This document shows positions 1-39,020 of a stretch of DNA of 57,255 nucleotides, one piece after another. Source of the stretch: a virus. Below the pieces are notes generated by a model, which was not told the origin of the DNA, made no database searches, and saw nothing but the letters and a program-made list of their open reading frames with translations. Location of the stretch: positions 1-57,255 of IMG/VR virus record IMGVR_UViG_3300049489_000428, one strand, 5' to 3'. Position 1 is the stretch's first letter; every line of letters begins with the position of its first letter. Position numbers and translations under genes: made by a program.

Positions 1-59
1 GCAATTACAGTGGGGTTGCCGCTACCTACCCAAAGCAACACGATTAGAACATAGATCAT
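1..59 (-). CDS. partial small hydrophobic protein, runs off left edge
   Basis: Only the first 19 codons are visible. They begin MIYVLIVLLWVGSG, a hydrophobic stretch that could be a membrane anchor or signal peptide. The start is chosen because a GAGGAT ribosome site lies at 64-69, overlapping the stop of the gene upstream, which suggests translational coupling in the leftward early operon. Function unknown. Confidence 0.5.
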   Translation of the reverse strand, partial: MIYVLIVLLWVGSGNPTVI

Positions 60-67
60 TTTTATCC

Positions 68-196
68 TCAATAGTAGATTCGAACATTCTTGAATGGTTG
101 CACAAATTTTCCGTTGTGCTCGAATATTTCGCAATTGCGTTTTGCAAACCATTCGATAAAAAACAGCGGCAGAATTTTACACCATGATCGCAACAT
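68..196 (-). CDS. small hypothetical protein, 42 aa
   Basis: Short ORF (MLRSWCKILPLFF... to ...NVRIYY) filling the gap between two neighbouring genes of the leftward operon. It is supported by an AGGGG ribosome site in the end of the upstream gene and by its stop overlapping the GAGGAT site of the next gene. It has a basic/aromatic composition and no recognised domain. Coding status is inferred from tight packing and ribosome site placement. Confidence 0.5.
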   Translation of the reverse strand: MLRSWCKILPLFFIEWFAKRNCEIFEHNGKFVQPFKNVRIYY

Positions 197-197
197 A

Positions 198-401
198 TTA
201 AACCCCTAGCGCGACTTGTTGATTAGGCTGCCAGAAAATCACGATATACCGATAACCCTTTTTGATCTGCGGCAGATCACGATTCGACAGATAGGGACCG
301 TTGATAATCTTGAAATCCTTGCCCGCGTTCCAATCATTCAATGCTTGTTGCTGCGAATGATAGTTGCGACCATAAGCGGGACGAATAAAAAGAGTGCTCA
401 T
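198..401 (-). CDS. hypothetical protein, 67 aa
   Basis: Compact soluble protein (MSTLFIRPAYGRNYHS...) rich in aromatic and basic residues, with no recognised domain. It is preceded by AAAGGTTAAC, the same ribosome-site sequence used by the next gene upstream. It follows the 51-aa coiled-coil gene by 9 bp in the leftward early operon that starts at the promoter near 976-1004. Function unknown. Confidence 0.7.
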   Translation of the reverse strand: MSTLFIRPAYGRNYHSQQQALNDWNAGKDFKIINGPYLSNRDLPQIKKGYRYIVIFWQPNQQVALGV

Positions 402-410
402 GTTAACCTT

Positions 411-566
411 TCAGGAGTTAGCAGTTTCAAAAGCCTGACGAAGCAAATTCAACACACGTTCTTGCCTTCGCAGGTTTTCTAGATCGATTTCCGTGTCGCG
501 GATCATCTCTTGCGTAATTCGCAATTCTTGCTCAATCTGTTCAAGTGGGGGGAGCAAATGTCGCAT
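411..566 (-). CDS. short coiled-coil protein, 51 aa
   Basis: Begins MRHLLPPLEQIEQELRI and is almost wholly heptad-like helix (EQIEQELRITQEMIRDTEI...LENLRRQERVLNLL), so a dimeric coiled coil is likely. The longer frame opening at 647 was rejected: the ATG at 566 has an AAAGGTTAATC ribosome site formed by the last codons of the upstream membrane protein gene. No function recognised. A small coiled coil among early genes could be an inhibitor that binds a host protein, but that is only a guess. Confidence 0.65.
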   Translation of the reverse strand: MRHLLPPLEQIEQELRITQEMIRDTEIDLENLRRQERVLNLLRQAFETANS

Positions 567-568
567 GA

Positions 569-817
569 TTAACCTTTCAGAAAAATGACGATGAGAAGTG
601 CAAATTGGCCGATGATTCCGATTACTGATCCGACAACGTATGCCCAAAGTTTAACATAAATTTCCTGAATTAGGCAAGCGACCAGACCAATAAGAAGCAG
701 AATAACGGAGGCAGCAGGAGCAGTTTCACCAGTTTGCAATGCTTGAATGATCGCAGGAACCGCGCTCACCTGCAAGCAAACTGTACCCAGGAACCCGGCA
801 AATTTTGCGTGTTTCAT
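569..817 (-). CDS. three-TM small membrane protein, SemiSWEET/PQ-loop-like
   Basis: 82 residues with three predicted membrane helices (about 6-26, 35-54, 58-80). The pattern resembles SemiSWEET/PQ-loop half-transporters: a Pro after helix 1 in SAVPAIIQALQTGE, a Ser-rich start of helix 2, and a basic C-terminal end (FLKG). In that family a dimer of three-helix units moves sugars. Here the Gln of the PQ motif is replaced by Ala, so transport is uncertain. It overlaps the upstream gene by ATGA and has AAGGG 9 bp before the start. Inner membrane location is inferred. Confidence 0.6.
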   Translation of the reverse strand: MKHAKFAGFLGTVCLQVSAVPAIIQALQTGETAPAASVILLLIGLVACLIQEIYVKLWAYVVGSVIGIIGQFALLIVIFLKG

Positions 818-969
818 TGTATTCTACCCTTGAGCAGCAGATAAACAATGGTTGCAAGAGAAATTGCAAAGCCTAGCAGGCCAAATTTGGCAAGTGTGAG
901 TAAACACCTATTCCAAAAATCCTCAACCCCCCAAACGGCGTAACCTATTAATTTTGTGTGTTTTGACAT
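814..969 (-). CDS. single-TM small protein, 51 aa, apparently leaderless mRNA
   Basis: Starts MSKHTKLIGYAVWGVEDF, with one membrane helix near residues 25-46 and a basic end. The ATG at 969 lies seven bases after the -10 hexamer CATAAT (976-981), so the predicted transcript begins at or next to the start codon. A longer frame reaching 1095 would run through the promoter and the conserved block, so it was rejected. First gene of the operon running to the left edge. Function unknown. Confidence 0.6.
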   Translation of the reverse strand: MSKHTKLIGYAVWGVEDFWNRCLLTLAKFGLLGFAISLATIVYLLLKGRIQ

Positions 970-975
970 GAGCCT

Positions 976-1004
976 ATTATGTGCGCACCCTAGAATCCTG
1001 TCAA
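976..1004 (-). promoter_or_regulatory. sigma-70 promoter for leftward early operon
   Basis: Minus-strand TTGACA (999-1004), 17-bp spacer, CATAAT (976-981). The predicted start near 969 coincides with the ATG of the 51-aa membrane protein. An FNR-like box is centred 40.5 bp upstream of the first -10 base. Confidence 0.75.
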
Positions 1005-1014
1005 TAGACTTTGC

Positions 1015-1028
1015 TTGATCTAGATCAA
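1015..1028. promoter_or_regulatory. FNR/ANR-like box between divergent promoters
   Basis: TTGATCTAGATCAA, a perfect match to the FNR/ANR consensus TTGAT-N4-ATCAA. Its centre is 50.5 bp from the first base of the TACGCT hexamer at 1072, i.e. near -62 of that plus-strand promoter. Two further copies show the same distance (2843-2856 and 5504-5517). It could instead bind a phage regulator. Confidence 0.55.
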
Positions 1029-1069
1029 ATATCTTTTTGCAAAAACCGTTGACACCCCAATTTTTGGTG

Positions 1070-1134
1070 GGTACGCTACGCGGCGCGTAAGTCATTGATT
1101 TTAAAGGGTTTTTTCTTTGTGGTCATCTATATGA
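1070..1134 (+). repeat. five-copy conserved control block, copy 1
   Basis: Begins with a plus-strand promoter-like pair: TTGACA (1055-1060), 17-bp spacer, TACGCT (1072-1077). Then follow conserved ACGCGGCGCGTAAG, an AT-rich segment CATTGATTTTAAAGGG with TTTTTT, six variable bases, and TCATCTATATGA (1123-1134). From TACGCT to TCAT is exactly 51 bp in all five copies. It may give a very short terminated RNA antisense to the leftward genes. Confidence 0.7.
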
Positions 1135-1140
1135 CTGCGA

Positions 1141-1160
1141 GCCGACGAACGGTAGTTGAC
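1141..1160 (+). promoter_or_regulatory. phage operator-like site, copy S1
   Basis: GCCGACGAACGGTAGTTGAC, the fullest version of a site recurring next to -35 hexamers in this early region (2098-2111, 2121-2138, 4562-4576, 4662-4679, 5911-5927). Here it runs into TTGACA, but the -10 at the proper distance (TAGCTA, 1179-1184) is poor and lies in a terminator stem. It may be a remnant promoter. Confidence 0.5.
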
Positions 1161-1168
1161 AAATACAA

Positions 1169-1196
1169 GAGCCCGCGGTAGCTACTCCGCGGGCTC
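1169..1196 (-). terminator. terminator of the leftward operon 1881-1282
   Basis: Perfect 10-bp stem GAGCCCGCGG / CCGCGGGCTC with an 8-base loop, followed on the minus strand by TTGTATTTGT. It ends transcription from the genes at 1282-1881. The 85 bp between it and the stop at 1282 hold nothing recognised. Confidence 0.8.
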
Positions 1197-1281
1197 AGGG
1201 GTCACTAACGATTACCATTCGGGCCGTTCAGGTCTTAGGCCATTCCACCTCAGTTTAGCTGCGAGGTTCAGCATCGCGATT

Positions 1282-1566
1282 CTACATAAACCCGTAACGC
1301 ACGATGTAAGCGAAAATCACAACCAGAATGCACCGCATGAAACCTGTAACAAGCGAGAATGTATAATCTTGATCCGCTTTAGTCGCTTTGAATGTGAGAA
1401 CGGCAACAAGCGTTGACCCTACGTAGGCTTGCAACATCGTGACTCTAGGAACGCCATAAAGGTCTGGCATAATCAGATTCCACGAGTGAGCCGCCGCCCA
1501 GGCCCAAAAGAAAACCAGAATGACGGTAAAAACGATTCCAAGAACAATCTTAATGGTCTTTTCCAT
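1282..1566 (-). CDS. multi-spanning small membrane protein, 94 aa
   Basis: Predicted helices at about residues 5-27, 42-62 and 72-92, with a short polar loop containing HSWNLIMPDLYGVPR. No family recognised. It starts two bases after the stop of the prepilin-like gene, with AAGG 11 bp upstream, so the two are probably translated together. The pair could form a membrane module, for example acting on the envelope or on type IV pili; this is inference from adjacency. Confidence 0.65.
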   Translation of the reverse strand: MEKTIKIVLGIVFTVILVFFWAWAAAHSWNLIMPDLYGVPRVTMLQAYVGSTLVAVLTFKATKADQDYTFSLVTGFMRCILVVIFAYIVRYGFM

Positions 1567-1568
1567 GA

Positions 1569-1694
1569 TTACCAGACCTTGCTAATGAAGTGCCAAGCGA
1601 CGTAGACAAGGCCACCCAGAATTGCAAGTTTGACAACGATAGCGACAACGATGATGAGTTCGACGACGGTAAAGCCCGATTGAAAACGCTTCAT
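1569..1694 (-). CDS. 41-aa prepilin-like protein (type IV pilin N-terminus only)
   Basis: Translation starts MKRFQSGFTVVELIIVV, continues as a hydrophobic helix and ends ...HFISKVW. It has the hallmarks of a class-III signal peptide: short basic leader, Gly at -1, Phe at +1, Thr at +2, Glu at +5, then a hydrophobic helix. These are the features read by prepilin peptidase PilD. The globular pilin domain is absent. An AGGGGA ribosome site lies 8 bp upstream, and the gene sits 1 bp after the upstream stop and 2 bp before the next start. A role in blocking or capping type IV pili or pseudopili is inferred, not shown. Confidence 0.7.
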   Translation of the reverse strand: MKRFQSGFTVVELIIVVAIVVKLAILGGLVYVAWHFISKVW

Positions 1695-1695
1695 T

Positions 1696-1881
1696 TTACT
1701 TTCCCCTGTTAGTGGAACGACGAGCCTTGATGTCGCGGTTCGCTTGCGCGCGAGCCGCAGCGTTGGATGCTTGTTGCCGAAGCGTACCGTTCGCCCGCGC
1801 TTTCGCGGTCTTACCGGAACCGGACAGGGGTTCCAAACCCTGAGCGATACGCCATGCGTTGATCTGTTCTTGCTTGGTCAT
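1696..1881 (-). CDS. small basic protein, 61 aa
   Basis: MTKQEQINAWRIAQGLEPL followed by a disordered Ala/Arg/Lys-rich tail ending RRSTNRGK. It is strongly basic, so nucleic-acid binding is plausible. The start at 1881 is chosen for AAAGGA 8 bp upstream. The frame can be extended to a TTG at 1935, but no ribosome site supports that. First gene of an operon with the prepilin-like and 94-aa membrane proteins, driven by the promoter at 2069-2096 through a 180-nt leader. Confidence 0.65.
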   Translation of the reverse strand: MTKQEQINAWRIAQGLEPLSGSGKTAKARANGTLRQQASNAAARAQANRDIKARRSTNRGK

Positions 1882-2062
1882 TTCGGTTTCCTTTAGGTGG
1901 AGTGTTGTAAAGCCTAGGCTATCTTCGCAGCTCAATCGTCTGGTCTAGATCCGAGGATCGAAGGGCGGGAGAGTGGAAGTTAGCCTAGGTTACTCAATCG
2001 GCCATCGCGGTTTCCCATGTTCGCCTAAGCGGCTTTTGTCGGGGGAATGTGCTTAACCGATA
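1882..2062 (-). other. long untranslated leader of the 1881-1282 operon
   Basis: About 180 nt between the promoter and the first supported start. It contains two related units, each with CGATTGAG followed by CCTAGGCT (near 1911-1947 and 1978-2003), and a palindrome AGCCTAGGCT. A 12-codon ORF, MGNRDGRLSNLG, could be a leader peptide. The structure may control translation, but no known riboswitch was recognised. Confidence 0.35.
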
Positions 2063-2068
2063 AGTTGA

Positions 2069-2096
2069 ATTATACGCGCGCCCACAAAATCGTCAA
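2069..2096 (-). promoter_or_regulatory. sigma-70 promoter for the 1881-1282 operon
   Basis: Minus-strand TTGACG (2091-2096), 16-bp spacer, TATAAT (2069-2074), continuing TCAACTTATCGG. The same sequence after the -10 is seen at 2805 and 4534. The operator-like site at 2098-2111 sits just upstream of the -35. Confidence 0.75.
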
Positions 2097-2097
2097 T

Positions 2098-2138
2098 GAC
2101 CGTTCGTCGGCTGACACCTAGCCGACAGACGGTAGTTG
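2098..2138. promoter_or_regulatory. inverted pair of operator-like sites S2/S3
   Basis: GCCGACGAACGGTC on the minus strand (2098-2111) and GCCGACAGACGGTAGTTG on the plus strand (2121-2138) form an inverted repeat. Each abuts the -35 of a divergent promoter (2069-2096 minus; TACGCT at 2157 plus). One regulator could control both. Confidence 0.55.
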
Positions 2139-2154
2139 TTTTTTTGGCCAGCCC

Positions 2155-2219
2155 GGTACGCTCCGCGGCGCGTAAGTCCTTGATTTTAAAGGGTTTTTTC
2201 TGTCAAGTCATCTATATGA
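2155..2219 (+). repeat. five-copy conserved control block, copy 2
   Basis: TACGCT at 2157-2162, CGCGGCGCGTAAGTCC, a stem CCTT-TGATTTTA-AAGG type segment followed by TTTTTT, and TCATCTATATGA at 2208-2219. The spacing to TCAT is again 51 bp. The -35 region here is TTGTTT with a 15-bp spacer, so this promoter copy is weaker. A degenerate Fur-like sequence follows at 2237-2251. Confidence 0.65.
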
Positions 2220-2260
2220 ATTTATTTGACAGTAAATGCGTCTCATTCTCATTTACAGGT

Positions 2261-2288
2261 AAAGCTATGGCCCCTTGCGGGGCCATAG
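2261..2288 (-). terminator. terminator after the 131-aa gene
   Basis: 10-bp stem CTATGGCCCC / GGGGCCATAG with a TTGC loop, 17 bp after the stop of the 2306-2701 gene. The minus-strand tail is only CTTTACC, so termination may be partial. Confidence 0.6.
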
Positions 2289-2305
2289 TCCTAAGTTATT
2301 ACAGG

Positions 2306-2701
2306 TTACACGGGGATCATGCCGTCCGTGTCGACCGTTTCCGGCTCCACCGGCTCACCGACCGGCTCAGCTTCGAACGCGAGAGCCGCAAGAATCAGCT
2401 TAAGCGCATTCTTGGGAGCCGCTTCGAGGCCGTCGAGCTTGTCGGAAGTGACGCCGATTTCATCGGCAATCTTTTGCACAAGTGCATTCTTGTGCACGAC
2501 CGGCGAACCATCCTTCGCCTTACGCTCGGCCTTCTTATAGACGCCTTCGCGCACGAGCTTGGCCACGACCGACTTAGTGGTCTTGCCGAACTTCGCCGCC
2601 ATCGCTTCCACGGTGGCCTTTTCGGGAGCCGCAGTGTAAGCGGCGACGAGTGCGGAAGTCTGTTCCGCGGTATAATTCACAACCTTAGCTTTTTCAGCCA
2701 T
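2306..2701 (-). CDS. single-HTH protein, paralogue-like relative of the D5-like protein
   Basis: 131 aa, Ala/Lys/Glu-rich. A helix-turn-helix-like unit at about residues 28-55 (MAAKFGKTTKSVVAKLVREGVY) closely resembles the units repeated in the 54013-54744 protein (LGTTSRSVAAKLRKLGHEV), so both probably belong to one DNA-binding family. The C-terminus is acidic (EPVGEPVEPETVDTDG), typical of phage DNA-binding proteins with a regulatory tail. Ribosome site AAAGGG 8 bp before the ATG. Single-gene unit between the promoter at 2805-2832 and its own terminator. A transcriptional or nucleoid role is inferred. Confidence 0.65.
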   Translation of the reverse strand: MAEKAKVVNYTAEQTSALVAAYTAAPEKATVEAMAAKFGKTTKSVVAKLVREGVYKKAERKAKDGSPVVHKNALVQKIADEIGVTSDKLDGLEAAPKNALKLILAALAFEAEPVGEPVEPETVDTDGMIPV

Positions 2702-2804
2702 TTTGTTTCCCTTTACAGGTAATTAGACGCTAGGGGAACAGTCGCATCGCGCTAGGCATCCCTGCCTCCAGACCCCATCGAATGTCATCCATCCGATAAT
2801 TTGA

Positions 2805-2832
2805 ATTATACGCTGTTCCGCCAGTCTGTCAA
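2805..2832 (-). promoter_or_regulatory. strong sigma-70 promoter for the 131-aa HTH gene
   Basis: Minus-strand TTGACA (2827-2832), 16-bp spacer, TATAAT (2805-2810): both hexamers perfect. The leader is about 97 nt. The FNR-like box centred at 2849.5 lies 39.5 bp upstream of the first -10 base. Confidence 0.85.
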
Positions 2833-2842
2833 CACACAAACA

Positions 2843-2856
2843 TTGATTTAGATCAA
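2843..2856. promoter_or_regulatory. FNR/ANR-like box, copy 2
   Basis: TTGATTTAGATCAA matches TTGAT-N4-ATCAA. It is centred 50.5 bp from TACGCT at 2900, identical to the other two copies, although the sequence between differs. Confidence 0.55.
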
Positions 2857-2897
2857 AAAAGATTTCGGCCAAACTGTTGCTATTCCATTTTCAAACG

Positions 2898-2962
2898 GGT
2901 ACGCTACGCGGCGCGTAAGTCATTGATTTTAAAGGGTTTTTTCTCGGAGGTCATCTATATGA
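2898..2962 (+). repeat. five-copy conserved control block, copy 3
   Basis: Plus-strand TTGCTA (2877-2882), 17-bp spacer, TACGCT (2900-2905). Then the conserved GC-rich and AT-rich segments with TTTTTT, and TCATCTATATGA at 2951-2962 (51-bp spacing). Followed within 7 bp by a Fur-like box. Confidence 0.7.
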
Positions 2963-2968
2963 GTGGAA

Positions 2969-2983
2969 TGAGAATCATTCTCA
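2969..2983. promoter_or_regulatory. Fur-like box
   Basis: TGAGAATCATTCTCA is a perfect 7-1-7 inverted repeat of the type bound by Fur. It lies between the conserved block and the terminator of the HAD gene. Binding by host Fur is inferred. Confidence 0.5.
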
Positions 2984-2991
2984 CCTATAAG

Positions 2992-3021
2992 CAAAAATTA
3001 TCGCGGCTCGCGCCGCGATAA
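2992..3021 (-). terminator. terminator of the 4526-3023 operon
   Basis: 10-bp stem TTATCGCGGC / GCCGCGATAA followed on the minus strand by TTTTTGC, immediately after the stop codon of the HAD phosphatase gene. Confidence 0.85.
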
Positions 3022-3022
3022 C

Positions 3023-3499
3023 TTAGGCCAACCGCGCATTTGCCTTGTGCGCGTTAATGCAAGTGATTCCCATTTGCCTCATGGTTCGCAACACGGGGGC
3101 AGCGTCGTCGAACATAATGAAATGCGCTTTCACAAACTGTTTTAGGTTTCGCAACGGAGCTAGCCATTTCCTTTTATATTCGCCGTCGCCGGATTTGTAA
3201 TGCTTCACGCCGCGGCATTGGTCGCGCGACATTATCTTAGCTGCGGTCAGACCATGATCGCGCAAGAAATCATAATCACATTTCTTCATATCGCGCGCGG
3301 TCAGAATCCAAACCTTTTCACCGCGAGCGATCAGATCGCGCATAACATCGGCGAGAGGTAGCAGAGTGTCGAGTGCTACATTCTCCGGCGTATGGCGTTC
3401 AATGTATGCGGCCAGGTTTAGCGTGCCGTCTGGATTGTTCGGCGTGCGATGTTTCGAGTTAATGACAGTCTCATCGAGATCAAAAATAAAAACGCGCAT
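3023..3499 (-). CDS. HAD-superfamily phosphatase
   Basis: 158 aa. Motif I DLDET near residues 6-10 (nucleophile Asp and acid/base Asp), motif II Thr in WILTAR (about 71-76), Lys region KHYK/KRKW, and motif IV MFDDA (about 131-135). This is the layout of small HAD phosphatases such as the 3'-phosphatase half of phage polynucleotide kinase. The kinase domain is absent. Start at 3499 is chosen for GGAGGA 5 bp upstream and TAATG overlap with the exonuclease gene; the frame extends to 3526. Likely removes phosphate from nucleotides or DNA ends; exact substrate unknown. Confidence 0.75.
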   Translation of the reverse strand: MRVFIFDLDETVINSKHRTPNNPDGTLNLAAYIERHTPENVALDTLLPLADVMRDLIARGEKVWILTARDMKKCDYDFLRDHGLTAAKIMSRDQCRGVKHYKSGDGEYKRKWLAPLRNLKQFVKAHFIMFDDAAPVLRTMRQMGITCINAHKANARLA

Positions 3500-4176
3500 T
3501 ATTTCCTCCGTTGAACAAGTTGCCACGGCATAGCATGGATTTTATTAGTCAATCGTTTTTGCTTGCGACGAATCACGCGAGCAAGAATCGCGCATTCGAT
3601 TTCGCAATCCTCAATTGCCGTATGCGATTCTGCGAACGTCGGATTTTGCGTCAGATAAGCATAAACAGATTCCGCGCTAGTGCGAACATTGCCGGCGGGT
3701 GAGACAAATCCGTTAGCTTCGCACCATGCGCGATATTTGTTAGTATTCACCAGATCAACGCAAGCCGATAGCCACAAATCCACAAATGCGATTTTGTGTT
3801 GCAAAAATTTATCGGTCATTCCGCAATAGTGCATTGTCTCCGTTAGTGCGTTGCGATCAAATGCGATGTTGTACGCTGCGACAGTGCGAACATTGTGTGA
3901 GTCGATCAGTGCATTAAAGTCGCGGCGAATTTCCGAGAATGATTGCAGTTTAATGCTACCATCGGCAAGCGAGGGAATGTAATGCGTGAAAGTCTTTTTC
4001 GAGTAGTATGCGCCAAGCATCAAATCGGGATTAGTGATAACTTCGCGCACGGCAAAAGACCTGCGGTCGATTTCATTTCCCTTACGGTCGCAAATGATGA
4101 CGCCGAAATCATAAACGAGTTTAGGCGAAATGCCGATTGTCTCAGTGTCAAAAACTGCAAAATTCTGTTGCCTCAT
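3499..4176 (-). CDS. DEDD-family 3'-5' exonuclease (DnaQ-like)
   Basis: 225 aa. Exo I FDTETIG near residues 9-15, Exo II YNIAFDRNAL (about 101-110) and Exo III HTAIEDCEIE (about 186-195, His five residues before Asp, DEDDh type). These are the metal-binding residues of DnaQ/RNase T exonucleases. It acts on single-stranded DNA or RNA ends in the cytoplasm. It overlaps the SprT-like gene by ATGA and the HAD gene by TAATG, so the three are co-translated. An end-processing role with the HAD phosphatase is plausible. Confidence 0.8.
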   Translation of the reverse strand: MRQQNFAVFDTETIGISPKLVYDFGVIICDRKGNEIDRRSFAVREVITNPDLMLGAYYSKKTFTHYIPSLADGSIKLQSFSEIRRDFNALIDSHNVRTVAAYNIAFDRNALTETMHYCGMTDKFLQHKIAFVDLWLSACVDLVNTNKYRAWCEANGFVSPAGNVRTSAESVYAYLTQNPTFAESHTAIEDCEIECAILARVIRRKQKRLTNKIHAMPWQLVQRRK

Positions 4177-4526
4177 TTTACCAATGCTCCCGAATAGGCG
4201 TAGCCGAAAATTCTAATATGGTGGCGTTGAAAAAATCGCCCGTGCTGTTCGCGTTGTGTGCGTTTCGATTTTTGAATCGCTTGCAATTGGTGGATCATTT
4301 CATGCAAGATTAATTCGCGCAAATCAGAATCGGGACAAGCTAGGTTAATGGTTATGCGATGTTTTCCATCCTTGCAAATGTCCCAATAGCCGGCGAAATC
4401 GGAATCGGGCATCGTGGTAAAATAGAACCTCGGTTTCGGCAAACGCGATTCAAAGAATCGGATGTTAGCCAATTCCCAGATACCCTGAATGTAGAGCCGC
4501 ATGGCCCTTGTGTTGTGCGTTCCCAT
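4173..4526 (-). CDS. SprT-like zinc metalloprotein
   Basis: 117 aa with HEMIH near residues 92-96 and a downstream HGRFFQRH that fits the third zinc ligand of SprT/Spartan-like proteins. That family cleaves DNA-linked proteins or is of unknown function in bacteria. Two starts are possible. The ATG at 4526 lies seven bases after the -10 TATAAT, implying leaderless mRNA. The ATG at 4502 begins MRLYIQGIWELANIRF, where SprT homology starts, with AAGGG 2 bp before it. I list the longer form. Confidence 0.7.
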   Translation of the reverse strand: MGTHNTRAMRLYIQGIWELANIRFFESRLPKPRFYFTTMPDSDFAGYWDICKDGKHRITINLACPDSDLRELILHEMIHQLQAIQKSKRTQREQHGRFFQRHHIRIFGYAYSGALVK

Positions 4527-4533
4527 AAGTTGA

Positions 4534-4561
4534 ATTATACGCGCCCCAGTTAGCTTGTGAA
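4534..4561 (-). promoter_or_regulatory. sigma-70 promoter for SprT-exonuclease-HAD operon
   Basis: Minus-strand TTCACA (4556-4561), 16-bp spacer, TATAAT (4534-4539). The operator-like site CTGACGAACGGTACT (4562-4576) lies directly upstream, as at 2098. Confidence 0.75.
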
Positions 4562-4679
4562 GTACCGTTCGTCAGTTCGTTAAGTATATGATTTCATTAC
4601 ATATTCACCCAGTAGACCTAGCTCACACACAAAAGACCTTTTAGAATCATAGAGTTAGCGAGCCGACGAACGGTAGTTG
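4562..4679. promoter_or_regulatory. divergent operator-like sites S4 and S5
   Basis: S4 (4562-4576, minus) and S5 (4662-4679, plus; GCCGACGAACGGTAGTTG) are inverted with about 85 bp between them. Each touches the -35 of its own promoter. The AT-rich stretch between them holds no gene. Confidence 0.5.
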
Positions 4680-4696
4680 CACCCGCCATTTTGGGC

Positions 4697-4762
4697 GGGT
4701 ACGCTACGCGGCGCCTAACCCCTTGATTTATAAGGAGTTTTTCCTCACGGTCATCTATATGT
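4697..4762 (+). repeat. five-copy conserved control block, copy 4
   Basis: TTGCAC (4677-4682), 17-bp spacer containing an ACCCGCC / GGCGGGT inverted repeat, and TACGCT (4700-4705). Then CGCGGCGCCTAACC, CCTTGATTTATAAGG with TTTTT, and TCATCTATATG at 4751-4761. The stem bases differ from other copies but still pair (CTCCTT / AAGGGG on the minus strand), suggesting a conserved hairpin. Confidence 0.7.
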
Positions 4763-4775
4763 GTTTGCATACGTT

Positions 4776-4809
4776 AACGTATACGTAGATTGCAATCAAC
4801 GTATACGTT
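4776..4809. repeat. double palindrome forming an 11-bp inverted repeat
   Basis: AACGTATACGT (4776-4786) and ACGTATACGTT (4799-4809) are exact inverted copies 12 bp apart, and each arm is itself nearly palindromic. There is no T-run on either side, so this is more likely an operator pair or cruciform than a terminator. Confidence 0.6.
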
Positions 4810-4814
4810 GCGAT

Positions 4815-4833
4815 GCGAACGATTATCATTACA
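4815..4833 (-). promoter_or_regulatory. Fur-like box, degenerate
   Basis: Minus-strand TGTAATGATAATCGTTCGC matches 14 of 19 positions of the Fur consensus by my count. It overlaps the 3' end of the membrane protein gene at 4829. Confidence 0.35.
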
Positions 4834-5050
4834 TTAACCATTGTGTGATACCGTATATATTTGCGGTTGCGAAAACGCTATTAAGCAAAAGAAGCGGAGT
4901 GTTCTTAATCCGCCAAGAATGGATAACGTAAGCGGCGGCACCAATTAAGAAGGGAATATAACCGAACCCGGACACGCCAGTATGCGAGGCCACCATAAAA
5001 GCGCCAAGCATTCCGAAGCAAGCGCCTATCCATTCTAGTGTGCTCCCCAT
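4829..5050 (-). CDS. three-TM small membrane protein, PnuC/PQ-loop-like half transporter
   Basis: 73 aa starting MGSTLEWIGACFGMLGAFM. Three hydrophobic helices (about 4-22, 27-43, 50-70), with LLLLNSVFATANIYGITQW resembling the repeated helix of PnuC-type vitamin transporters and PQ-loop proteins. Only half the size of PnuC, so it would act as a dimer, if it is a transporter at all. Start at 5050 chosen for AAGG 7 bp upstream and TAATG overlap with the upstream gene. Inner membrane. Confidence 0.55.
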   Translation of the reverse strand: MGSTLEWIGACFGMLGAFMVASHTGVSGFGYIPFLIGAAAYVIHSWRIKNTPLLLLNSVFATANIYGITQWLM

Positions 5051-5250
5051 TATGCTACCTTCCGCATTTCGGCGGCAATCTTCAGCAGGCATTCGTTTAC
5101 AGTCTTGGCACCGTGCCGTGCGAGAATCAATCCCTTAATGCGGGAGATACGGCTGCGAGTATTGAAATCGGTAGGATTAACCAAAGTTGCAATGTTCCGC
5201 GTAATCATGCCGAGGGTCTTTGCATCCATCAGAAGTTGGAATTTGTCCAT
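5050..5250 (-). CDS. hypothetical protein, 66 aa
   Basis: MDKFQLLMDAKTLGMITRNIATLV..., an all-helical basic protein ending AAEMRKVA. No domain recognised. The start at 5250 has GGATGG upstream; an alternative ATG is at 5259. It lies between a 58-aa gene and the membrane protein, overlapping the latter by TAATG. Function unknown. Confidence 0.6.
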   Translation of the reverse strand: MDKFQLLMDAKTLGMITRNIATLVNPTDFNTRSRISRIKGLILARHGAKTVNECLLKIAAEMRKVA

Positions 5251-5252
5251 GT

Positions 5253-5429
5253 TTACCATCCCATGCGGAAGTTAATCAGTTCGACGGTATATTCTACCGA
5301 TTCATTGGCATTGAAGCAAGCGCCGAGAGTCTTACGAACAAGCGAATTTCCAAACAGGTCGGGATTGAATTCGCCCATCGTGAAAACGTCATTTACGAAC
5401 AGGTCGAACAGCGGATTGGTATTGAGCAT
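5253..5429 (-). CDS. hypothetical protein, 58 aa
   Basis: Begins MLNTNPLFDLFVNDVFTMGEF and ends VELINFRMGW. It fills the space between the promoter at 5455-5483 and the 66-aa gene. The ATG is about 19 nt after the predicted transcript start, with only a weak GCGAGAA ribosome site. The sequence is protein-like (amphipathic, mixed composition) and in line with operon packing. Function unknown. Confidence 0.55.
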   Translation of the reverse strand: MLNTNPLFDLFVNDVFTMGEFNPDLFGNSLVRKTLGACFNANESVEYTVELINFRMGW

Positions 5430-5454
5430 TTGTGTTCTCGCTTGGTATGATTGA

Positions 5455-5483
5455 ATTATGATCGCGTTGTGCTAGTGTGTCAA
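5455..5483 (-). promoter_or_regulatory. sigma-70 promoter for operon 5429-4829
   Basis: Minus-strand TTGACA (5478-5483), 17-bp spacer, CATAAT (5455-5460). The FNR-like box centre is 50.5 bp upstream of the first -10 base, the same distance as to the divergent plus promoter. Confidence 0.75.
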
Positions 5484-5503
5484 GCGTTTCGCGTGACATT
5501 TAT

Positions 5504-5517
5504 TTGATCTAGATCAA
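5504..5517. promoter_or_regulatory. FNR/ANR-like box, copy 3
   Basis: TTGATCTAGATCAA. Its centre (5510.5) is exactly equidistant from both divergent -10 hexamers (5460 minus, 5561 plus), near -62 for each. Confidence 0.55.
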
Positions 5518-5557
5518 AAAAGATTTTGTCCAAGCTATTGCATTACGCGCTGCGCGC

Positions 5558-5623
5558 GGGTACCCTGCGGGGCGCGTAAGCCCTTGATTCCCAAGGGATT
5601 TTCTTACGCGGTCATCTATATGA
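5558..5623 (+). repeat. five-copy conserved control block, copy 5
   Basis: TTGCAT (5538-5543), 17-bp spacer, TACCCT (5561-5566). Then GCGGGGCGCGTAAG, a perfect stem CCCTTG / CAAGGG with ATTTTC, and TCATCTATATGA (5612-5623). The stem is preserved by compensating changes relative to copies 1-3. It ends next to the stop codon of the zinc-ribbon gene. Confidence 0.7.
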
Positions 5624-5624
5624 G

Positions 5625-5858
5625 TTAAAAGCTATCGTCACCGTAGTAACCATAATCTTCGTCTGTCCCCCATCCGGCCGAGCGCAGGACGTCTGCATCA
5701 GCCTCGGCGTCAGAGTTAAATTGATCCTGCTCATCATCCCCATCATAGAGGTCGAGGTCTACACCACCACATTCCGGGCATTCATCCGATACATTGTGCA
5801 GATCAGTAACGTCGCGCTGGAATACTTCACCACATTCGAGGCATATCAAGGTCGCCAT
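5625..5858 (-). CDS. acidic zinc-ribbon protein, 77 aa
   Basis: MATLICLECGEVFQ...CPECGG: two CxxC pairs (about residues 6-9 and 28-31) form a zinc ribbon. The rest is strongly acidic (YDGDDEQDQFNSDAEADADV) and Tyr/Gly/Asp-rich at the end, which suggests DNA mimicry or protein binding. Ribosome site AGGAGA 7 bp upstream. Transcribed alone from the promoter at 5886-5913, which has a near-perfect Fur box upstream. Function unknown; a regulator of host transcription is one possibility. Confidence 0.7.
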   Translation of the reverse strand: MATLICLECGEVFQRDVTDLHNVSDECPECGGVDLDLYDGDDEQDQFNSDAEADADVLRSAGWGTDEDYGYYGDDSF

Positions 5859-5885
5859 TTGTTTTCTCCTGTTGTGATAGGTGTA

Positions 5886-5913
5886 AGTATATATGCTATG
5901 AGTTATAGGTCAA
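5886..5913 (-). promoter_or_regulatory. sigma-70 promoter for the zinc-ribbon gene with operator S6
   Basis: Minus-strand TTGACC (5908-5913), 16-bp spacer, TATACT (5886-5891). The operator-like site (5911-5927, CCGACGAACGGTAGTTG on the minus strand) overlaps the -35. Confidence 0.7.
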
Positions 5914-5930
5914 CTACCGTTCGTCGGTTA

Positions 5931-5949
5931 GTTAATGATAATCATTATC
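5931..5949. promoter_or_regulatory. near-consensus Fur box
   Basis: GTTAATGATAATCATTATC matches the 19-bp Fur consensus at 18 positions. It lies about 18 bp upstream of the -35 of the zinc-ribbon promoter, next to operator S6. The rest of the 5950-6215 gap holds the tandem repeat and the late promoter. Confidence 0.6.
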
Positions 5950-6046
5950 ATTAGGGGAGGGCGGTTAGTTGACCTGGTGGTATGGCATAGCTACAGGACC
6001 AACTTTCGCGAAAAATTTATAAAAATTTCTGACCCTAAATTGCAAA

Positions 6047-6124
6047 GGGCCGCATGGGCCGCATGGGCCGCATGGGCCGCATGGGCCGCATGGATTTATT
6101 ACCCTAAATTGCAGAGGGCCGCAT
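6047..6124. repeat. 9-bp tandem repeat upstream of terminase
   Basis: Five perfect head-to-tail copies of GGGCCGCAT (6047-6091) and a sixth at 6116-6124. The flanks are also duplicated: CCCTAAATTGCA before each cluster and GGATTTATTACC after each. This GC-rich iteron sits just before the small terminase gene in an AT-rich region, the usual place of a packaging (cos/pac) signal. Confidence 0.75.
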
Positions 6125-6180
6125 GGATTTATTACCACCCACACTTATTTCATATAATTCAACCAAGCATAAAAATATAC

Positions 6181-6209
6181 TTGATTTCGTTAATCTTATG
6201 ACGTATAAT
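6181..6209 (+). promoter_or_regulatory. promoter before the late gene block
   Basis: TTGATT (6181-6186), 17-bp spacer, TATAAT (6204-6209). The predicted start is about 6216, the A of the chosen ATG of the small terminase gene. Confidence 0.6.
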
Positions 6210-6215
6210 AAAAGA

Positions 6216-6680
6216 ATGGGAACTAATATTACACCAATCACACCAGAGTATATTCCAATCTCTCCAGAATCATTGGAAATAGCCAATACATATCTTCAAT
6301 GTCAAGATGTGTCAGAAACAGCTAAACTTCTAGGATTACCTCTAGATCAAGTAGCTGCATATCTGGCAAAGCCTGACGTCAAAGAATATGTCACCGCAGT
6401 GTATTTAGATTCTGGATATAGAAATAGATTCAAACTAGGGAAAATCCTAGATGAAGTAATAGATAAAAAACTAATAGAAATGCAAGAAGCGGATATCGGT
6501 TCATCCAAAGATATTCTAGATATTTTAGCGATGGTTCATAAGATGCGAATGGATGAACTCGCAGCTATAACTGCGCTAGAAAAAGCTAGAAGTGCTGGAC
6601 CGAAGAAACAGACTAATATTCAAATAAATAATCCAGCTGGATCTATTTTTGAAAAGTTGATGGATAATGATGAATTGTAA
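6216..6680 (+). CDS. terminase small subunit (putative)
   Basis: 154 aa from MGTNITPITPEYIPISPES. An N-terminal helical segment with DVSETAKLLGLPLDQVAAYL looks like the helix-turn-helix that recognises packaging DNA. A helical oligomerisation region and a disordered tail with QTNIQINNP follow, as in many small terminases. It lies at the head of the late block, although three genes separate it from the large subunit. The frame extends back to 6123, but that would translate tandem-repeat DNA and cross the promoter, so the ATG at 6216 is preferred. Confidence 0.65.
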   Translation: MGTNITPITPEYIPISPESLEIANTYLQCQDVSETAKLLGLPLDQVAAYLAKPDVKEYVTAVYLDSGYRNRFKLGKILDEVIDKKLIEMQEADIGSSKDILDILAMVHKMRMDELAAITALEKARSAGPKKQTNIQINNPAGSIFEKLMDNDEL

Positions 6681-10515: not shown

Positions 10516-10965
10516 ATGGCAAATATTAATAGAGCACGATTACCTGTAAAATGGATTCGTGATATGAACAAGACTCGCTACCAAAAGGGCGACACTTGTG
10601 CAATATGTGGTACGAAAGAGGATATTGAATTTCACCACTACTACTCCTTAACATTGCTCTTTGAGAAGTGGTTAAAAGTTAACAATTTAACCATCAACAA
10701 CGATGACGATGTGCTTAACATTCGTGAACAGTTCAGTAATGAACATAAGCGAGAGTTATTTGGAGAAGTGGTAGATTTATGTAAAGCTCACCATGCCAGA
10801 TTGCACGACATCTACGGAGTTACTCCCATGTTGCATACTGCAGAAAAGCAGAAGCGCTGGGTTGGAATTCAGGCAGAAAAGCATGGGATAACTTATGAGT
10901 TTGTGGAACGACACGAAGATGTGGCTGAGCGAAAAATTAAACCCCGTTCAACCCATTATATCTGA
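10516..10965 (+). CDS. HNH endonuclease
   Basis: 149 aa. CAICGTKEDIEFHHYYS gives a CxxC zinc half and the HH of the HNH motif. The second half is VDLCKAHHARLHDIYG (residues about 88-103). It lies directly before the portal gene, where many HK97-like phages encode an HNH protein needed with terminase for DNA cleavage at packaging. A free-standing homing enzyme is the alternative. The 3' end overlaps the portal start by 71 bp. Confidence 0.8.
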   Translation: MANINRARLPVKWIRDMNKTRYQKGDTCAICGTKEDIEFHHYYSLTLLFEKWLKVNNLTINNDDDVLNIREQFSNEHKRELFGEVVDLCKAHHARLHDIYGVTPMLHTAEKQKRWVGIQAEKHGITYEFVERHEDVAERKIKPRSTHYI

Positions 10966-38087: not shown

Positions 38088-39020
38088 CTAGTGGCTTAGC
38101 TGCTGGTTGTCTGTTAGTCCAAGTTGCTTTTCTACATCATTTAATGTCCCCATCAAATGGTATGGAACTTGGCTCTTGAGAGTTTCTAGCAATTCAAGCA
38201 ATTTTTCATATTGAGTCGCCTCAATAAGGACCTTTATACTATTATTACATGCATGTAGGGTACCGTGACAATGTTGGCAAAGAGTTATCAAATTTATTAA
38301 TTGATGTGCTTCTGCAGGATTATTAAATAAATGGTAGTTTATAATGTGGTGAACGACTAAATTTTCCTCAGTACCACATTCTGCACAGTTATTATTTTGT
38401 TTAATAAAATCATTTCTAAACTTAGTCCAACCACCTAATTTAGGTCGTAGACACTGACCATGTTTAAAGGCCGGATTATTTTCACCTCGTTTAGATTTGC
38501 TTTTATATTCCGCAGCAGAAACACACTTTAGATTTTCTGGGAGTAGATTAGTGTAGTCTCCATCTTCTGGCACTATCCAACAATTTTCCGGAACATATTG
38601 TTTATTGTATAATTCCCATGCTACAATATGAGCTTTTACTTGACCACTATCTACATTAGATTTAGGGTGGTTTGGAAAAGATACTACGCATCTAATACTA
38701 CCGTCTGCGTAATTATAAGTTGGATTATTTAACCTATCCTCTAACATTGCTGTAATATATGTATTATTCCAGTAATCTTTTTGCTTATCATACTGTAATA
38801 AAAACTTTCTAACAACTTGTTTAATTTTAGGATATGGTAGGGAATCTATTCCTAAATAATCATAAATTCTATAATATACTGAAGCACTCAATCGATTTTC
38901 AGAATTACTTAACTTTAAAAACTTATGTAAGTCTATCTGTGTTGGTCCTTCACTAAATATATAGTTTAATACATTCTCTTTACCTATTGCATCAATATTT
39001 TTTTCTACATGATATGTCAT
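38088..39020 (-). CDS. intron-encoded HNH homing endonuclease
   Basis: 310 aa. A first HNH-like part (about 128-190: VKAHIVAWELYNKQYVPENC...LLPENLKCVSAAEYKSKSK) has the NUMOD/HNH_3 look. A second is classical HNH (about 215-260: CAECGTEENLVVHHIINYH; LCQHCHGTLH). It would cut intronless reductase genes to spread the intron. It has its own extended -10 promoter and an AGGAGGT ribosome site. Two catalytic modules in one protein is uncommon. Confidence 0.8.
   Translation of the reverse strand: MTYHVEKNIDAIGKENVLNYIFSEGPTQIDLHKFLKLSNSENRLSASVYYRIYDYLGIDSLPYPKIKQVVRKFLLQYDKQKDYWNNTYITAMLEDRLNNPTYNYADGSIRCVVSFPNHPKSNVDSGQVKAHIVAWELYNKQYVPENCWIVPEDGDYTNLLPENLKCVSAAEYKSKSKRGENNPAFKHGQCLRPKLGGWTKFRNDFIKQNNNCAECGTEENLVVHHIINYHLFNNPAEAHQLINLITLCQHCHGTLHACNNSIKVLIEATQYEKLLELLETLKSQVPYHLMGTLNDVEKQLGLTDNQQLSH

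Follow-up and report, generated by a model that had tools for sequence, protein, structure and literature searches.

The viral record IMGVR_UViG_3300049489_000428 of IMG/VR, a single record of 57,255 bp that was analysed over its whole length (the window), carries five copies of a 65-bp intergenic block between positions 1,070 and 5,623. In each copy a promoter-like signal is followed at a fixed distance by a site that matches the consensus of integration host factor (IHF), and this arrangement is repeated at the boundaries of early operons, facing backwards. On balance, backward promoters that IHF is proposed to gate are the likeliest explanation of the blocks.

The repeated block and its two signals

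The blocks also emerged, independently, as one repeat family, the members of which are 78-95% identical to copy 1, align without gaps and all lie on the + strand. Block 1 (1070-1134) begins with a -10 element, TACGCT (1072-1077), which is followed by a GC-rich start region, the IHF core, a T-run and the palindrome TCATCTATATGA. The same layout is found in block 2 (2155-2219, -10 at 2157-2162), block 3 (2898-2962, -10 at 2900-2905), block 4 (4698-4762, -10 at 4700-4705) and block 5 (5559-5623), where the -10 is TACCCT (5561-5566) and the GC module has a paired C/G change. Only copy 4 has a different palindrome, TCATCTATATGT; the other four have TCATCTATATGA. The distance from TACGCT (or TACCCT) to TCAT is 51 bp in 5/5 copies, and a short stretch before GTCAT is free to vary among them. 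The pattern of core plus T-run occurs five times; in Markov-simulated sequence of equal length 0.005 occurrences would be expected. This bears out the exact spacing for which a sequence-only reading had singled out the blocks. All five are also located inside intergenic gaps or at their edges and point rightward, against the leftward genes, as that reading had said. A 140-bp family reaches upstream of the block; compared with copy 1, it has copy 3 at 78% and copies 4 and 5 at 60-63%. Because the similarity extends beyond the block, the copies probably go back to duplication.

What had been described as a stem and T-run is, on the minus strand, the IHF consensus AATCAANNNNTTA in 5/5 window copies, with an A-tract 8-9 bp away. 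The consensus is given as WATCAANNNNTTR (PMC8942017), and the strongest IHF sites typically have an A-tract next to it (PMC9519438). The matches, all on the minus strand, are at 1088-1100 in block 1 (AATCAATGACTTA, with the A-tract at 1109-1114, which is the T-run of the + strand), 2173-2185 in block 2 (AATCAAGGACTTA), 2916-2928 in block 3 (AATCAATGACTTA), 4716-4728 in block 4 (AATCAAGGGGTTA) and 5577-5589 in block 5 (AATCAAGGGCTTA). One clue to what is under constraint comes from 25 first copies, taken from the window and its relatives. The fixed IHF positions are invariant among them and the N positions vary, the first IHF base is solely T or C, as the consensus permits, and the T-run (columns 23-26 of the + strand, where it is the A-tract to the left of the core) is invariant. 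A search of four records, the window and three relatives, gave no HU/IHF homolog, and therefore a host protein would serve. From the consensus, the A-tract and the conservation, we infer that host IHF binds the blocks. The binding platform that the sequence-only reading had offered as an alternative fits, and the platform is probably one for host IHF.

The second signal lies at the start of the block. TACGCT occupies the -10 slot of a rightward promoter of sigma70 type (P_R), and TTGNNN stands 17 bp upstream in 4/5 window copies: TTGACA at 1049-1054 in block 1, TTGCTA at 2877-2882 in block 3, TTGCAC at 4677-4682 in block 4 and TTGCAT at 5538-5543 in block 5, all on the + strand. When TACSCT was fixed as the -10, the best -35 score averaged 3.09 versus 1.14 (standard deviation 1.31) at nearby control positions, scored with approximate weights that were entered by hand. 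Among 24 copies from the window and relatives, the -35 is above threshold in 18, versus 26% of controls, and in 16 its spacing is exactly 17 bp. When TATAAT, GGCGC and the IHF core were searched for together, further multi-copy intergenic blocks with TTGACA-16/17-TATAAT were found in three T5-like records (G039, G040 and G041), whereas a control with a scrambled -10 hexamer gave unrelated matches only, none of them with the block. In these records the block opposes the nearest genes in most cases, and the -10 sits in a palindrome of which both arms change together (as read from the matches). Another relative, L210, has two neighbouring blocks with a common upstream stretch, one with TACCCT as its -10 and the other with TATAAT. 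That TACGCT is the -10 of a conserved promoter-like signal, as had been suggested from the window, is well supported by the -35 at 17 bp in most copies and by the canonical TTGACA/TATAAT in the same slot in relatives.

To the left of each block is a leftward promoter candidate (P_L), on the minus strand: TTGACA-17-CATAAT at 976-1004 for block 1, TTGACG-16-TATAAT at 2069-2096 for block 2, TTGACA-16-TATAAT at 2805-2832 for block 3, TTCACA-16-TATAAT at 4534-4561 for block 4 and TTGACA-17-CATAAT at 5455-5483 for block 5. P_L is the promoter of the next early operon, and P_R faces the 3' end of the preceding one. The distances from P_L to the -10 of P_R are 67, 60, 67, 138 and 77 bp for blocks 1 to 5. 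With 60-77 bp in 4/5 blocks, the two promoters therefore stand almost back to back. In L196 and L210, several blocks have a P_L at 60-69 bp from the -10 of P_R. Two other repeats share this space. Blocks 1, 3 and 5 have perfect TTGATNNNNATCAA palindromes, which we take to be FNR-type boxes, in the space from P_L to P_R (1015-1028, 2843-2856 and 5504-5517); this is 6 strand-counts (3 sites) versus 0.025 expected. In blocks 2 and 4 the box is replaced by GCCGACGAACGGTAGTTG, a repeat that occurs in both orientations (1137-1158, 2094-2112, 2117-2138, 4557-4579, 4658-4679 and 5909-5931) and that often abuts a -35 hexamer, also in the relative L209.

Recurrence in distant relatives

The viral searches used regular expressions that pre-select their patterns, save for those that did not depend on the core (the GC module alone and the inverted arms). 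A 28-base pattern made up of core plus T-run matched 76 viral stretches, versus 0 for the reversed 28-mer, with up to eight core matches per record. In a larger bacterial collection the forward 28-mer matched 10 stretches, several of them, by eye, just after apparent tRNA 3' ends. The tested carriers are syntenic, distant T5-like phages, the terminases of which are 49-59% identical to that of the window. Two of the relatives, L057 and L097, also have the TACGCT...GCGGCGC module, in a direction opposite to the genes. The 18-bp GC module GGGTACGCTNNGCGGCGC, searched alone in 2.9 million viral contigs, gave 22 stretches. All of the intergenic AT-rich ones continue with YAANNNNTTGATT, and the remaining matches look like chance, nearly all being in GC-rich contigs. 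A different arrangement is seen in G020 and L070, where two inverted arms surround a GC-rich core of 12-15 bp; these were found without using the IHF core, and the IHF core is present in 16/16 arms. Relatives might have kept the blocks without constraint on spacing, which would have spoken against a functional unit. When this was checked, the spacing from the -35 to the T-run proved constant within 1-2 bases.

The likeness has its limits. No counterpart of the TCATCTATATGA part was seen in relatives, where a second IHF core is often found 34-35 bp after the first. The classical T5-like phages HildyBeyeler and DU_PP_V are without the cassette in the parts fetched. Positions 1-6300 gave no match to named phages, and a single block gave short, weak stretches only, which, where inspected, were mostly IHF-like cores, one of them adjoining an integrase gene.

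Several observations weigh against IHF-gated promoters. The counts are not independent, since the copies of any one genome go back to duplication. The -35 of block 2 is poor (TTGTTT, at 15 bp), and a sub-lineage of four relatives (L180, L192, L193 and L081) has TACCAT in the -35 slot. The inverted arms of G020 and L070 have no promoter between them, so a promoter is not required everywhere. In some other relatives, P_L candidates are weak or more distant. The 19 second copies, which start 34-35 bp on and of which many lack the hairpin or the T-run, keep the core, but they were searched for with the core pattern itself and this conservation is partly built in. Finally, some first copies of relatives have a good terminator stem.

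The stem and the competing explanations

This last point bears on the explanation that the sequence-only reading had put first, in which P_R makes abundant RNAs of about 30 nt that end at the stem and T-run and act in trans as decoys or antisense RNAs. The promoter it needs is well supported, and good stems precede the T-run in several first copies of relatives (-14.6 kcal/mol for the L210 block near 4792-4809, -9.4 for the L180/L097 type). Copies 4 and 5 of the window fold better as a terminator stem than copies 1-3. However, copies 1 and 3 (-1.9 kcal/mol) and copy 2 (-3.5 kcal/mol) fold no better than shuffles (z at least 0). Of 25 distinct copies from the window and relatives, 5 have something other than C-G at the variable inner pair of the stem (columns 7-19), namely A-G in four and T-G in one, and the altered pair is never compensated on the other side, as counted by hand. 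The IHF core is kept by many second copies that have no stem, and also by the inverted arms, which have no promoter. It is the positions of the IHF consensus that are invariant, and a small terminator is not supported as what the blocks conserve. The paired stem changes that had been noted fare differently in the two parts of the block. In the GC module, copy 5 and four blocks of relatives have C-C-C/G-G-G in place of C-G-C/G-C-G; mismatched cases number 0/25, and this paired change may be one old event. In the stem before the T-run there is no covariation. Rfam matched only a group I intron in the window and no described RNA family at the blocks. An RNA of about 30 nt ending at a terminator is possible, given the good stem in some relatives; as an account of the blocks as a whole, tiny RNAs acting in trans are unlikely.

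Somewhat less probable still is a boundary or topological insulator, in which bending by IHF and weak termination separate operons and P_R is incidental. The element does lie at operon boundaries, a similar core and T-run occur in unrelated phages in both orientations relative to the genes, and the inverted type has no promoter. Simulations indicate that IHF is able to pin plectonemes and partition the DNA into topological domains (PMC9519438). Against this explanation stands the adjoining promoter, which is kept across deeply diverged relatives and has the full consensus in G039-G041.

What if P_R does run on? Late read-through transcripts from it might silence the early operons by antisense or collision. 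Every P_R faces the 3' ends of early genes, and for halovirus HF2 long counter-transcripts have been reported, along with intergenic repeats that carry promoters (PMC8707807). Nevertheless, strong hairpins lie within ~100 bp downstream of several blocks (by eye), and such a switch seems very improbable. A replication origin or primer site is more improbable again: a promoter, an IHF site and an AT-rich stretch together resemble some origins, but one block per early operon and up to eight core copies per record are more than an origin needs, and no initiator site was identified. Least credible is a mobile or REP-like (repetitive extragenic palindromic) repeat spreading within the genome, for which near-identical copies in one genome (e.g., L097) suggest duplication or gene conversion, but which sits poorly with a fixed place beside early-operon promoters in syntenic relatives, a constant orientation and a -35 conserved outside the repeat.

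Two further candidates were tried and rejected. An N4-type hairpin promoter was considered for the mini-hairpins with 3-nt loops, but, by eye, copies 2, 4 and 5 do not keep the TACGC/GCGTA stem intact. The T5 nick (sci) site, R/GCGCRGG (PMC3517423), is not in the blocks by inspection; GCGCGG occurs only beside copy 5 (5554).

Genome setting, known systems and meaning

We take the window to be a fragment of a T5-like phage. Its terminase is ~50% identical to those of T5-like phages and matches proteins of 45 other viral contigs at 56-60% identity, and its DNA polymerase is ~46-47% identical to T5-like phage polymerases. The lineage has no close isolate in the phage collection searched, where the best terminase match is 51%. 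Leftward small genes occupy 0.2-5.9 kb, rightward structural genes 6.1-37 kb and leftward replication genes 57-37 kb. A search for T5-type A1/A2 proteins found none in the window or in the relatives that were tried. A 131-aa protein (2306-2701, - strand), which some relatives have in several copies, matches the T5 D5-like transcription regulator family weakly (PHROG 323, E 4e-5) and could be a regulator of the blocks. Positions 1-6000 have a GC content of 46-50%, versus mostly 35-43% elsewhere in the window. At 6046-6136, just upstream of the small terminase gene, GGGCCGCAT is repeated in tandem, in four copies of 18 bp that follow each other at 9-bp steps. The gene at 10516-10965 (+ strand), between terminase and portal, has the position of an annotated nicking endonuclease in HildyBeyeler. 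The group I intron (Rfam RF00028; 37977-38258, - strand) overlaps the end of an HNH endonuclease gene (38088-39020).

Parts of the arrangement are familiar. The H' site of lambda attP has the same consensus with an A-tract on its left, and its gap from core to A-tract, ~8 bp, is matched by the 8-9 bp of the blocks. Unlike H', the block sites lie on the first transcribed bases of a promoter and are repeated at early operon boundaries. In lambda there is also an IHF site upstream of pL1 in the pL1/pL2 pair, which places IHF beside an early phage promoter, whereas the IHF sites of the blocks are on a separate, backward promoter and are repeated. The RIB/RIP type of bacterial interspersed mosaic elements (BIMEs) of E. 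coli are intergenic repeats around an IHF site next to GC-rich palindromes, and by description the blocks resemble them. However, BIMEs are chromosomal and contain REP sequence, and the blocks are few (five in the window), phage-borne and equipped with a promoter. Likened by description as well, halovirus HF2 has repeated intergenic blocks with promoters, conserved in position in relatives; it differs in being an archaeal virus, and its abstract mentions no IHF site (PMC8707807).

How might an IHF-gated backward promoter work? We hypothesize that P_R is a promoter of host type (sigma70), the first ~30 transcribed bases of which are overlain by a strong-type site for host IHF. Most likely, IHF would bind there, bend the DNA sharply and stop P_R from running on, so that P_R would stay poised or yield very short RNAs only. 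The bent, insulated boundary might then shape or protect P_L. As phage DNA multiplies IHF could be diluted, and P_R, once released, could oppose the early operons. That the repeated device times the shut-off of early genes in this manner, by very short RNAs or by release when replicating DNA titrates IHF, is a doubtful extension of the idea.

The blocks are a candidate non-coding control cassette that is conserved across T5-like phages with terminases only about half identical. If IHF binding holds, early-gene control in T5-like phages would be tied to a host nucleoid protein that is best known from temperate phages, and whether infection is timed by titration of a host protein that bends DNA could be tested simply.

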